A DNA stretch of 37,506 nt. It comes from Candidatus Pacearchaeota archaeon. GTDB taxonomy: Archaea; Nanobdellota; Nanobdellia; Pacearchaeales; GW2011-AR1. Both the position numbers and the translations under genes were made by a program. The notes below the pieces were generated by a model. That model saw nothing but the letters and a program-made list of their open reading frames with translations, was not told where the DNA came from and did not search any database. Each line of letters begins with the position of its first letter. Position 1 is the stretch's first letter. Below are positions 345 through 29,064 of this stretch, piece after piece. The stretch lies in NCBI GenBank assembly GCA_018304055.1, contig JAGVWY010000002.1, positions 1-37,506 on the forward strand, read 5' to 3'.

Positions 345-812
345 ATGGATAATCTTATAACAAAAGCAAAAATTGAGAAATATTATGTGATAACATTAAA
401 GGCGTTAGAAATTGCAAAGCAATCAGTTTCAATAGAGAATTTTGAAAAAATAGGAGTAACAAAATTCTCTAAGAAGGACTCAGAGAACAAGTTCTCTGAT
501 ACATTCAAAATCAGAGATTTTGAAGTCTTTGACGAATTTTCCTTAGGAATTAAAATTCCTAATCCTTCAACTTCAAAGAAGATTGAAGTCCTCGGAAAAC
601 AGGGTTATTCAAAGTCCTCAATAGGAAAAAAGAAACAATCTGAAGAAATCTTATTGATGGTTGAATGTTACTTGAAAGACTCGCTTTATTTCAAAGAAAA
701 AAAAGATTATGTTAATGCATTTGCATGTTTAAATTATGCCCATGGATGGTTAGATTGTGGAGCGAGATTAAAAATTTTTGATGTTAAAGATAATAAATTA
801 TTTAGTGTCTAG
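345..812 (+). CDS. DUF357-family protein interrupted by an in-frame hairpin-rich insert; start at ATG 345 preferred over 303
   Basis: C-terminus YLKDSLYFKEKKDYVNAFACLNYAHGWLDCGARLKIFDV matches the archaeal DUF357 pattern; N-terminal helix IEKYYVITLKALEIAK; roughly 65 extra aa between them. Confidence 0.75.
   Translation: MDNLITKAKIEKYYVITLKALEIAKQSVSIENFEKIGVTKFSKKDSENKFSDTFKIRDFEVFDEFSLGIKIPNPSTSKKIEVLGKQGYSKSSIGKKKQSEEILLMVECYLKDSLYFKEKKDYVNAFACLNYAHGWLDCGARLKIFDVKDNKLFSV
431..625 (+). repeat. Coding palindromic element, copy A (inside DUF357 gene)
   Basis: 12-bp inverted repeat TAGAGAATTTTG/CAAAATTCTCTA, further hairpins, 3' end CAAAGTCCTCAATAG; first 50 nt match 24335-24384 with one mismatch. 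Confidence 0.8.
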
Positions 813-6804: not shown

Positions 6805-8450
6805 CAATCCTTACATTAAATAGAAAAGAGCTGGAAAAGAAAATAGGAAAAATAGATGAGAAAATAGAAAATAGGATAAGTATGTTTGGAACTCCTATTG
6901 ATAGTATAAATGATAATGAAATAAGTATAGAAGTTTTCCCTAATAGGCCGGATCTTCTGTCATTGCATGGATTTACTAGGTCATTTTTAGCTTTTTTAGG
7001 AAAGGATAAAGGATTAATTAATTATAGGGTTGAAAAACCATTAAAAGACTATAGGGTAGTCATTGAGAAAAGTGTTAAAAAAGTAAGACCTTATACTGCT
7101 TGTGCTATTGTTAAAGGAATTAAATTTGATGAAAGTAAGATAAGGGAAATTATAGAACTGCAAGAAAAGCTTCATGCAAGTTACGGGAGAAATAGAAAAA
7201 AACTTGCAATAGGAATTTATCCTCTCGAGGAAATTAGACTTCCTATAACTTTCCTCGCAAGAAATCCAGAAAAAATTGCTTTTCAACCATTAGATTTTCC
7301 AAAAATAATAAATGCAAAACAAATTTTAAGCAAACATCCAAAAGGAAAAGAATATGGTTATTTATTGAAAGATTGTGAAGTATACCCTATTTTTGAAGAT
7401 TCAAAAGGAGAAATTTTGAGCATGCCTCCTATTATTAATTCAGAAAAAACCGGAAAGATAACTGAAAAAACAAAAGATGTTTTTATAGAATGCTCAGGAT
7501 TTAATAAAGAGTATCTCGATAAAACACTGAATATTATTGTAAGTGTCCTTTCTGATTTTAATGGAAGAATTTATGCTGTTGAAATTGAAGACAAAGGAGA
7601 ACGCAAAAAATATCTTTCTCCTAATCTGAAAGCTGAAAAAATAACTTTTTCTCCTGAATTTTTAAATAAAAATTTAGGGATGCATTTTAATGAGAATGAA
7701 ATAAAAGAGAATTTATCAAAAATGGGAATTGGATATTCAAAGGAAAAGAATAAATACTATGCCTTAATTCCATCATACAGAACTGACATTCTTCATGAAA
7801 TTGATTTAGCTGAAGAAATAGCCATTGCATATGGATATGAAAATTTTGAGGCAGAAATTCCTGCTATTTCAACAATCGGAGAAGAAAGTAAAACTGGAAT
7901 TATTAAAAGAAAAATTTCAGAAGTTTTAATTGGTTCAGGGCTTTTGGAAATCTCTAGTTATCATTTATCAACGAAAGAAAAGCAATTCAAAAAAATTGGT
8001 TACAAAGATTTTAGAGATAAATTGATAGAGGTTGTTGATTCAAAAACTGAAAGAAATATCTTAAGGGATTCCTTGTTAGCAAACTCAATAGAAATATTAA
8101 GCGAGAATACAGATGTTTCTTATCCACAAAAAATTTTTGAGGTAGGAACTGTTTTTTATAGTAACAAAAATGCTATTGAGGAGGAGGAAAGATTATGCAT
8201 TAGCTTATGCCATGAAAAAGCAAATTTTACTGAAATAAAGCAGGTTTTAGAATACCTCTTGAAGATGTTTACCTTATCTTATGAGATGAAAGAAAGTAGT
8301 CATCCAAGTTTTATTGATGGGAGATGTGGAGAAATTATTGTTAACAATAAAAAAGTTGGAATAATAGGAGAAATTCATCCTAGTATATTATATAACAATA
8401 AAATATTTATGCCTGTTGCGTCTCTTGAAATAGAAACAAGGTTTTTTTGA
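6801..8450 (+). CDS. pheT: phenylalanine-tRNA ligase beta subunit (archaeal)
   Basis: VEVFPNRPDLLSLHGFTRSFLAFLG, YRTDILHEIDLAEEIAIAYGYENF, GRCGEIIVNNKKVGIIGEIHP. Confidence 0.93.
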   Translation: MTILTLNRKELEKKIGKIDEKIENRISMFGTPIDSINDNEISIEVFPNRPDLLSLHGFTRSFLAFLGKDKGLINYRVEKPLKDYRVVIEKSVKKVRPYTACAIVKGIKFDESKIREIIELQEKLHASYGRNRKKLAIGIYPLEEIRLPITFLARNPEKIAFQPLDFPKIINAKQILSKHPKGKEYGYLLKDCEVYPIFEDSKGEILSMPPIINSEKTGKITEKTKDVFIECSGFNKEYLDKTLNIIVSVLSDFNGRIYAVEIEDKGERKKYLSPNLKAEKITFSPEFLNKNLGMHFNENEIKENLSKMGIGYSKEKNKYYALIPSYRTDILHEIDLAEEIAIAYGYENFEAEIPAISTIGEESKTGIIKRKISEVLIGSGLLEISSYHLSTKEKQFKKIGYKDFRDKLIEVVDSKTERNILRDSLLANSIEILSENTDVSYPQKIFEVGTVFYSNKNAIEEEERLCISLCHEKANFTEIKQVLEYLLKMFTLSYEMKESSHPSFIDGRCGEIIVNNKKVGIIGEIHPSILYNNKIFMPVASLEIETRFF

Positions 8451-22946: not shown

Positions 22947-25364
22947 ATGTCTCAATACAATCATCAAGAAATTGAATTAAAAATTTTGGAATTTTGGAGA
23001 AAAGAAAAAATCTATAAATTTAATGAAAAAAGAGATAAGATTTACAGCATTGATACTCCGCCACCAACTGTCTCTGGAAAAATGCACATGGGCCATGCAT
23101 ATTCATATTCTCAACAGGATTTTATCGCTAGATTTAGAAAAATGAAGGAAAATGTTTTTTATCCTTTTGGGACAGATGATAATGGATTGCCAACTGAAAG
23201 GTTAGTTGAAAAACTTAAGAAAGTTAAAAGCAAAGAAATGTCGCGAAGCGATTTTATAAAACTCTGTCTACAAACTCTCAAAGAAATTACGCCTGATTTT
23301 ATTCAAGACTGGAAAAATCTTGGAATAAGTTGCGATTTTGATATTTACTATTCAACAATAGACGATAATTCCAGAAAAATTTCACAAAGCTCTTTTATTG
23401 AATTATATAAAAAAGGTTTAGTTTACAAAAAAGAATTTCCCACACTCTGGTGTCCTGAATGCCAGACAGCGATTGCACAGGCAGAATTAGAAGATAAAGA
23501 ACTGGAAAGCTTTTTCTCTACTTTAATGTTTTCTTGTGATAACAAAGACTTATTCATAGCTACAACAAGGCCTGAAATGTTAGAGGCGTGCAGAGCTGTT
23601 TTTGTTCATCCTAAAGATAAAAGATATAAAGATTTAATAGGGAAAAAAGCAAAAGTTCCTTTATTTAACTTTGAAGTTCCTGTTATTGCTGATGAATCGG
23701 CAGATCCTGAAAAAGGAACAGGGGTTTTAATGGTTTGCAGCTATGGGGATAAATTTGATAGTGATGCAATTAAAAGACATATGTTGGAAAGTAAGATAAT
23801 TCTAGGAAAAAATGGCATTATTAAAGAAGGAAGATATAAAGGATTAAAGGTTAAAGATGCAAGGGAAAAAATTTTAGAAGAACTTGAAAAAAACAATTTG
23901 GTAAAAGAAAAAAAGATAATAAAACATGTGGTTAATGTGCATGATAAGTGTGGCACTGAAATTGAATTTCTTCCTACAGAACAGTGGTTTATTAATCTTC
24001 TTGATAATAAAAATAAATTTATTGAACTTGGTAAGAAAATACACTGGTATCCAAATTACATGTTTAAACGCTATGAGAATTGGGTTAATGGACTAGAATG
24101 GGATTGGTCTATATCCAGAGATAGGCATTTCGGTATCCCTATACCTGTATGGGAATGTAAAGATTGTAAGGAAATTATTTTAGCAGAGCAAAAAGAACTT
24201 CCAATAGATCCATTAGAAGTTAAAAAAATTTGTAAAAAATGCAAAAAAGAAGCTAATGGAGAAGAAAGAGTCCTTGATACATGGGCAACAAGTTCTTTAA
24301 CGCCACAAATTGCTTCATCTTTAATAAAAAATAAAATAGAGAATTTTGAAAAAATAAGAGTAACAAAATTCTCTAAGAAGGACTTTGTTAAAATTTCCCT
24401 CGGAAATCGCAATTATGCAAAGTTCTCAATAAAAATGCCTTACTCATTAAGACCTCAAGCTCACGATATAATAAGAACCTGGGCGTTTTATACTATTGTG
24501 AAATCATTTTACCATAAAAATAAGATTCCATGGAATGATGTTATTATCTCTGGTTATGCTACCTTAAAAGGAAAAAAAATGAGCAAAAGCAAAGGTAACA
24601 TAGTTGAGCCGCAAGAGGTTTTAAAAAAGTACGGAGCAGATGCCTTGAGATATTGGGCTGCTGGACCTAAACTTGGAGAAGACTTAGAATATCAAGAAAA
24701 AGATTTAATAGCTGGAAAAAAATTGCTTACTAAATTATGGAATGCAACAAATTTTATTTTTATTAATTTAAAAGACTATGATTTTAAAAAACCGAAAAAA
24801 TTAGAAAAAATTGACGAGCTATTATTAATAAAACTGAATGGGTTAATTAAAAACTGCACTGAATATTTTGAAAATTACGATTATTCTAAGGCAAAACAAC
24901 TTACGGATAATTTTTTCTGGAATATTTTTTGTGATAATTATTTAGAGATAATTAAAAAAAGAATTTATAACGAGAAAGGAGACAAAAAAAAGTCTGCTCA
25001 ATATACTTTATACAAAAGCTTGTTAACATTATTGAAATTATTTGCTCCTATTATTCCTTTTATTACCGAAAATATTTACCAAGAATATTTTAGAAAAAGG
25101 GAAAAAGAAAAAAGCATTCATTTAACAAAATGGCCTAAAGCTGAAAAAATAAAAAAAAGCACCGAAGAATTGGATTTTTTCCTAGAGATTTTATCAAAAG
25201 TAAGACAGGAAAAATCTGCTCAGAAAAAGCCTATGAATGCAGAGATTATATTGTTTTTAGAGAAAAAAGAAAAAAATAAAATAAAAGAATTATTAGATGA
25301 CCTGAAAAATGTTAGCAATGCTAAAGAAATAAAAGAAGGGGAATTTAAAGTGGATATTTTATAG
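22947..25364 (+). CDS. valS: valyl-tRNA synthetase, with in-frame palindromic insert
   Basis: PPPTVSGKMHMGHAYSY, TTRPEMLEACRAVFVHP, LDTWATSSLTPQIA, LRPQAHDIIRTWAFYTI, GKKMSKSKGN. Confidence 0.95.
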   Translation: MSQYNHQEIELKILEFWRKEKIYKFNEKRDKIYSIDTPPPTVSGKMHMGHAYSYSQQDFIARFRKMKENVFYPFGTDDNGLPTERLVEKLKKVKSKEMSRSDFIKLCLQTLKEITPDFIQDWKNLGISCDFDIYYSTIDDNSRKISQSSFIELYKKGLVYKKEFPTLWCPECQTAIAQAELEDKELESFFSTLMFSCDNKDLFIATTRPEMLEACRAVFVHPKDKRYKDLIGKKAKVPLFNFEVPVIADESADPEKGTGVLMVCSYGDKFDSDAIKRHMLESKIILGKNGIIKEGRYKGLKVKDAREKILEELEKNNLVKEKKIIKHVVNVHDKCGTEIEFLPTEQWFINLLDNKNKFIELGKKIHWYPNYMFKRYENWVNGLEWDWSISRDRHFGIPIPVWECKDCKEIILAEQKELPIDPLEVKKICKKCKKEANGEERVLDTWATSSLTPQIASSLIKNKIENFEKIRVTKFSKKDFVKISLGNRNYAKFSIKMPYSLRPQAHDIIRTWAFYTIVKSFYHKNKIPWNDVIISGYATLKGKKMSKSKGNIVEPQEVLKKYGADALRYWAAGPKLGEDLEYQEKDLIAGKKLLTKLWNATNFIFINLKDYDFKKPKKLEKIDELLLIKLNGLIKNCTEYFENYDYSKAKQLTDNFFWNIFCDNYLEIIKKRIYNEKGDKKKSAQYTLYKSLLTLLKLFAPIIPFITENIYQEYFRKREKEKSIHLTKWPKAEKIKKSTEELDFFLEILSKVRQEKSAQKKPMNAEIILFLEKKEKNKIKELLDDLKNVSNAKEIKEGEFKVDIL
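24335..24431 (+). repeat. Coding palindromic element, copy B (inside valS)
   Basis: TAGAGAATTTTG/CAAAATTCTCTA hairpin; AAGGACTTTG...CAAAGTTCTC second arm pair; first 50 nt match 431-480 with one mismatch. Confidence 0.85.
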
Positions 25365-28928: not shown

Positions 28929-29064
28929 GGTTTTTGAACACATCAGAAATTTTTCAGAAAATTTCTGAACGCCCCAAAAAACTTCTGATAGTTTTTTGGT
29001 GTGCTCCGAATTCCACATGCTATTTTTTACTACATGTCTTAAACGTGTGGAATTCGGACATTTT
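28929..29064. repeat. Intergenic multi-hairpin element E2
   Basis: TCAGAAATTTT-TCAG-AAAATTTCTGA (11 bp), CCAAAAAACT-TCTGAT-AGTTTTTTGG (10 bp), CCGAATTCCACA...TGTGGAATTCGG (12 bp). Confidence 0.9.

Follow-up and report, generated by a model that had tools for sequence, protein, structure and literature searches.

A double-hairpin mobile element with 4-bp target duplications lies in frame within valyl-tRNA synthetase and other genes of a Pacearchaeota-type archaeon

Palindromic DNA inserted into protein-coding sequences has been a Rickettsia curiosity since 2000, with sites mostly common to orthologues, and the double-hairpin elements of fungal mitochondria are small mobile hairpins in genes. 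Protein-coding palindromes, reviewed in Rickettsia, Wolbachia and M. jannaschii (PMC2996958, PMC2229807, PMC10969869, PMC3767692), are a kind already known in one archaeon, the last of these. The RPEs of Rickettsia occur in frame in housekeeping genes, including that of the aminoacyl-tRNA synthetase PheT, at sites reportedly common to Rickettsia orthologues (PMC3767692); a guanylate kinase that carries an RPE is both translated and active (reviewed in PMC2229807), and target duplication by RPEs was listed as unknown in a 2007 review (PMC2229807). Judged by description, the element reported here is like the RPEs (RPE-1 to -3 and others) and the Wolbachia palindromic elements in being a short multicopy palindrome found both in and between genes, and in lying in frame in solvent-exposed segments of conserved housekeeping genes; it differs in belonging to another domain of life, in its clear 4-bp target-site duplication (TSD), and in a valyl-tRNA synthetase (ValS) site that is private to one species. 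The Methanocaldococcus repeats, likened to it again by description, are also archaeal protein-coding palindromes, though from a distant archaeal lineage, and the byps of fungal mitochondria (PMC5009743) are likewise small mobile hairpins in genes. Contiguous ORFs occur in many MITEs of bacteria (PMC2229807), and prokaryotic MITEs (Correia/NEMIS, RUP, ERIC, Haloquadratum MITEs and SMRs) share with our element terminal inverted repeats, a TSD, AT-richness and the lack of a transposase gene; in contrast to them, it consists of two adjacent hairpins, has modular nested insertions that often keep the frame, and has yielded no matching transposase. What is new, then, is the DPANN host, the defined 4-bp TSD, the frame-neutral nested modules and the recent, species-private insertions.

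The window, by which we mean the whole 37,506-nt stretch of DNA analysed, is contig C72 of a Pacearchaeota-type (DPANN) genome of 1.23 Mb that is 92% complete (G000 below; G003, G005, G012 and so forth denote genomes of relatives, and C a contig). Its ValS has the catalytic and anticodon domains of class I synthetases, and the nearest ValS from a named organism is 67% identical to it in the best segment. The original prediction had placed a palindromic segment within valS at 24335-24431; its coordinates and both arm pairs proved correct, and a covariance model built from 22 aligned full copies matches exactly this interval (E ~1e-19; Table 1). Hairpin 1, whose outermost TA falls within the TSD, has the arms TAGAGAATTTTG/CAAAATTCTCTA, and hairpin 2 the arms AGGACTTTG/CAAAGTTCT with an apical hairpin of ATTTCC/GGAAAT; the RNA fold of the element has a z of -4.5, with 0/200 shuffles equally stable. 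That valS and a second locus of the window, copy A, carry the same element was borne out by 98% identity between the first 50 nt of the valS segment and copy A at 431-480; the valS copy is also 91% identical over 105 nt to one on contig C30. The net insertion of 93 nt (89+4), or 31 codons, encodes E465-I495: the inserted protein segment that had been proposed is real, but its limits had to be redrawn to these 31 aa, the I of IENF belonging to the 5' target copy.

Table 1. Coordinates of the element copies and their host genes in the window
Feature	Position	Strand	Basis
valS, valyl-tRNA synthetase, 805 aa, host gene	22947..25364	+	Pfam PF00133/PF08264
89-nt double-hairpin mobile element inside valS	24339..24427	+	22-copy alignment; covariance model match 24335-24431
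5' TSD copy of valS element, AATA	24335..24338	+	sequence; family-wide 62/75 identical 4-bp flanks
3' TSD copy of valS element, AATA	24428..24431	+	sequence; family-wide 62/75 identical 4-bp flanks
Hairpin 1, arms 24337-24348/24364-24375	24337..24375	+	RNA fold, covariation
Hairpin 2, arms 24379-24387/24418-24426; apical hairpin 24393-24398/24402-24407	24379..24426	+	RNA fold, covariation
Copy A, 185-nt long form, nested 48-nt modules at ~481-528 and ~545-592	435..619	+	sequence comparison
5' TSD of copy A, AATA	431..434	+	
3' TSD of copy A, AATA	620..623	+	
DUF357 (PF04010) gene, in-frame host of copy A	345..812	+	Pfam

The element is dispersed in many copies: BLAST against the genome returned 63 matches, including several reverse-strand echoes of palindromes, and the covariance model recovered about 50 distinct places, some of which are halves of long or nested copies. 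The 89-nt unit reads GAGAATTTTG (loop) CAAAATTCTC, a linker TAAGA, AGGACTTTG, the apical hairpin and CAAAGTYCTC, with the termini GAGAAYTTTG...CAAAGTYCTC; its terminal inverted repeats, GAGAACTTTG...CAAAGTTCTC, are perfect in many copies from G005 and G003 and carry one to a few mismatches in the window's genome. Across the 22 copies, the structure is maintained in 98% of the pair cells, 20 cells showing a change on either side of the pair, and it is destroyed when the pair partners are slid. A compensatory G-C/A-U change affects one pair of hairpin 1 (five copies), and a compensatory change is also seen at one pair of hairpin 2 (10 copies); a measure of further pair types gave no excess over shuffles in the same alignment, and as the covariation concerns few pairs and partly reflects subfamily differences, we use it as support only. 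In long forms, hairpin 2 or its apical loop houses additional pairs of hairpins, which usually measure 44 nt and come with a near-duplication of 4 nt (e.g., GACT...GACT or GTCT). One such form, copy A, makes a net insertion of 189 nt (63 codons) in the DUF357 gene, where positions 21-73 of the PF04010 profile match residues 91-145 of the protein, downstream of the insert. At the other extreme, a form of 50 nt in G005 consists of a single hairpin and has a 4-bp TSD of its own; it lies at C17:28130 (TTCA, antisense) and C20:4344 (TGAA, sense), both copies (L203, L204) being in frame inside genes; this form is perhaps the minimal mobile unit. The element is patchily distributed, being present in 14 of the order's 180 genomes, and it multiplied separately in G005, G111 and G163; exact-pattern scans of a named genome collection and of viral contigs, from which the window's genome is perhaps absent, gave 0 copies. 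Other palindromes were also encountered. An intergenic cluster at 28963-29058 of the window, TCCGAATTCCACA...TGTGGAATTCGGA, probably represents a second repeat family, since its motif GAATTCCACA recurs beside element copies at G000:C45 ~6165 and C1 ~6113. Similar double hairpins, TATAAAGATT...AATCTTTAAGA, follow one another in tandem at 7138-7426 in the Nanoarchaeota UBA9966 (L332) and are possibly distantly related to the element.

The flanks of the copies bear directly on how they spread. Taking all genomes together, 75 copies are strictly delimited, and 62 of these have identical 4-bp flanks as against a mean of 16.5 and a maximum of 27 upon shuffling of the 3' flank, and identity at 3, 5 or 6 bp is no better than chance in these same copies; counted separately with shuffles, the figures are 27/37 in the window's genome and 31/43 in the relatives. 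The direct 4-mers include TATA, TTAA, TAAA, TATT, TTTA, AATA, TGAA, TGTA, TTCA and CCAA. Therefore, the duplication is a real 4-bp TSD and the unit a MITE-like mobile element. It shares several features with MITEs: a TSD of fixed length, terminal inverted repeats, short size (89 nt), about 50 copies and no transposase gene. An alternative is that it is a REP/RAYT-type palindrome, spread through single-strand chemistry by a Y1 (TnpA-like) transposase. Its palindromy and high copy number would fit this, as would the one Y1_Tnp protein encoded in the genome (G000:C49). However, REPs are typically extragenic and Y1/HUH insertion is not known to make a target duplication; hence, we reject this route on account of the 4-bp TSDs and consider it very improbable.

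The second issue is why copies in unrelated genes share a phase. The original prediction had taken this to imply that frame-compatible insertion is selected for or brought about by some mechanism, a conclusion that we do not uphold. Read frame by frame, the consensus element with its TSD is stop-free in the sense frame GAG AAT TTT alone; the next sense frame meets TGA, the third meets TAG (formed by a TSD ending in TA and the G of the element), and nearly all antisense frames hold stops. Nested modules usually add 48 nt. With a net length of 93 nt, the downstream frame is preserved whatever the phase of insertion, but usually only one of six readings is passable; thus, element and TSD together making 31 codons with usually one open frame, the loss of harmful insertions is enough to account for the shared phase, and no guiding mechanism is needed. 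In keeping with this arithmetic, 10/10 intragenic copies in the window's genome are open with net lengths of 93, 141 or 189 nt as against 4/21 non-genic ones (Fisher p = 2e-5), and in the relatives the net length is a multiple of three in 11/11 intragenic versus 28/67 other copies (p = 2e-4, by hand tally), with the proviso that both p-values are partly circular, the 'genic' class having leaned largely on ORF continuity. The presence of conserved host domains on both sides of the insert is the better argument. Copies that break the frame or contain stops are common outside genes. A mechanism of insertion that chooses the frame was rejected: other-frame and antisense copies exist where those readings are open, as in an archaeal TGT (G163) and a HAD-family protein (G040), which read the element in another frame, and a C-methyltransferase of G005 with the antisense 50-nt form.

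The genes that host the element are diverse. In the window's genome they encode ValS, Fic, a LysA-like decarboxylase, a PrmC-type methyltransferase, ThpR, the DUF357 protein, an AlkD-like protein, the N-terminal part of a MoxR, a C39-like peptidase, an MtaB-like protein, in which the element is near the C-terminal region, and a C-methyltransferase/cupin fusion. The hosts elsewhere, which were named by eye from the sequence, we take to be uL10 (G006), TrmY (G013), the tail of uS3 (G005), LeuS (G111) and TGT (G163). As in the protein-coding palindromic repeats, the element is in frame within conserved protein genes, namely those for ValS, Fic, LysA-like, PrmC, ThpR, MtaB, DUF357, LeuS, uL10, TrmY and TGT. 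In the fusion (G000:C30:3062-3158; L002), it is situated between the C-methyltransferase (PF08484) and the cupin domain in a single ORF of 593 aa, and may have fused two genes. The thpR copy (G000:C32:20053; L167) is seemingly nested within another palindromic insert of a different kind, CAGAAATTTC...AAATTTCTG, and the ThpR of a relative is without about 70 residues at this place; two nested elements may thus have entered this gene.

Two further alternatives concern what becomes of the insert after transcription, and the state of the host frames weighs against both. Under programmed translational bypassing, akin to that of the Magnusiomyces mitochondrial byps, the ribosome would hop over the hairpin and the peptide would be absent from ValS. 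The strong hairpins in the mRNA and the identical ATA codons at both junctions, which could serve as take-off and landing sites, would suit such hopping, and so would one copy (G000:C20:6308-6404; L009; TSD TAAT) that interrupts a poorly known ORF with two in-frame stops while the flanks join in frame, although that gene is probably broken by the element. Yet bypassed inserts need be neither stop-free nor multiples of three, whereas internal copies in conserved genes are both and non-genic ones often are not. Moreover, known byps are ribosome-skipped and largely frame-disrupting (PMC5009743), whereas copies of the element keep the frame and are open when they lie in conserved genes. We found no frame-disrupting insert inside an essential gene: the 88-nt frame-shifting copy in ribosomal protein uL4 is at the very C-terminus, for which reason the shift is likely harmless. 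Bypassing is therefore, in our estimation, very improbable. Removal at the RNA level, as an archaeal bulge-helix-bulge or another mRNA intron, would be in line with the precise boundaries and the structured RNA, but sits poorly with the dozens of intergenic copies, with genic copies that keep the frame and are without stops, and with a structure of two adjacent hairpins lacking a bulge-helix-bulge at the junctions. An Rfam scan of the window matched no known intron or ribozyme family, its only match being one tRNA, and we give this explanation scarcely any weight.

Comparison with relatives revealed the empty sites. The original prediction had expected only a short linker at this point in archaeal ValS, and the linker indeed measures 15-24 aa in 66/66 scorable ValS genes of named relatives (Pacearchaeota, Woesearchaeota and kin) as against 48 in the window. 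For most of the 54 relatives with a match in tblastn searches, the alignment of ValS is broken at about 464/494, with almost nothing between the two pieces on the contigs, and an alignment of 14 sequences shows exactly 31 residues that are present in the window protein and absent from 13 relatives. The claim that a mobile palindrome had inserted into an essential synthetase is thus upheld: it is multicopy, has a 4-bp TSD and its site is empty in every relative examined. Likewise, Fic is without the insert at four loci in three genomes (G003 twice, G006 and G058), and empty sites were also found for the LysA-like decarboxylase (G003) and ThpR (G001). As judged from the sequences, the valS insertion is recent and private to one species. 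An ancient lineage-specific ValS insertion with coincidental palindromy, for which the 15-24 aa variation of the linkers might speak, is practically untenable in view of the DNA identities to copy A and the C30 copy, the TSD and the absence of the insert from all relatives examined. An AlphaFold2 model built on 47 ValS sequences (mean pLDDT 88, pTM 0.84) has its best PDB match in Thermus thermophilus ValRS (1gax, TM 0.85). Because the fold is confident, matches 1gax, and falls below a pLDDT of 50 only at 462-494, between the helix 452-461 and the strand 499-504, the insert is predicted to be a disordered excursion from an intact core. Thus modelled on ValS, it comes out as a disordered loop, and the protein most likely carries an extra floppy loop of 31 residues derived from the element.

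Hence, we propose with considerable confidence that this is a non-autonomous MITE-like double-hairpin element, which duplicates A/T-rich 4-bp targets, is frame-neutral and would be ordinarily translated within ValS. Briefly, the element would insert at an A/T-rich 4-bp target and duplicate it, presumably moved by a DDE-type transposase acting in trans; ordinary translation would then give a ValS with a disordered loop of 31 residues, whereas insertions in other phases would destroy the host gene and be lost, unless that frame happened to be open. Three PF01609 transposase loci are found in the window's genome, and none of the 28 such loci of the genus (18 incomplete genomes) has the terminal repeats of the element; assembly often loses IS elements that are present in multiple copies. 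One IS of a relative (G012:C240; L269), presumably IS1182-like as judged by eye, is bounded by perfect terminal repeats, TCCTAAGCAGGC, and has duplicated a 4-bp target, TTAA, but its ends are unlike those of the element; a contig-cut transposase in the window's genome (G000:C46:91-549) is similar to its transposase. More speculatively, selection might have adjusted the 93 nt of unit plus TSD and the 48-nt modules such that they are frame-neutral and have one open frame, one burst after another donating new peptides to essential translation and tRNA-modification proteins with the aid of a dedicated, unrecognised transposase, a scenario that we regard as rather unlikely.

As the proposed MITE-like element offers species-private insertions with intact TSDs, sites that are empty in close relatives and essential genes as hosts, it makes the question of how a selfish hairpin comes to be in frame directly testable. 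The answer on the reading that we favor is the arithmetic of length plus TSD, together with a filter for the one open frame. Such segments are a warning for annotators and structure modellers alike. More generally, these insertions suggest that mobile DNA supplies the translation machinery of very small genomes with new disordered segments.
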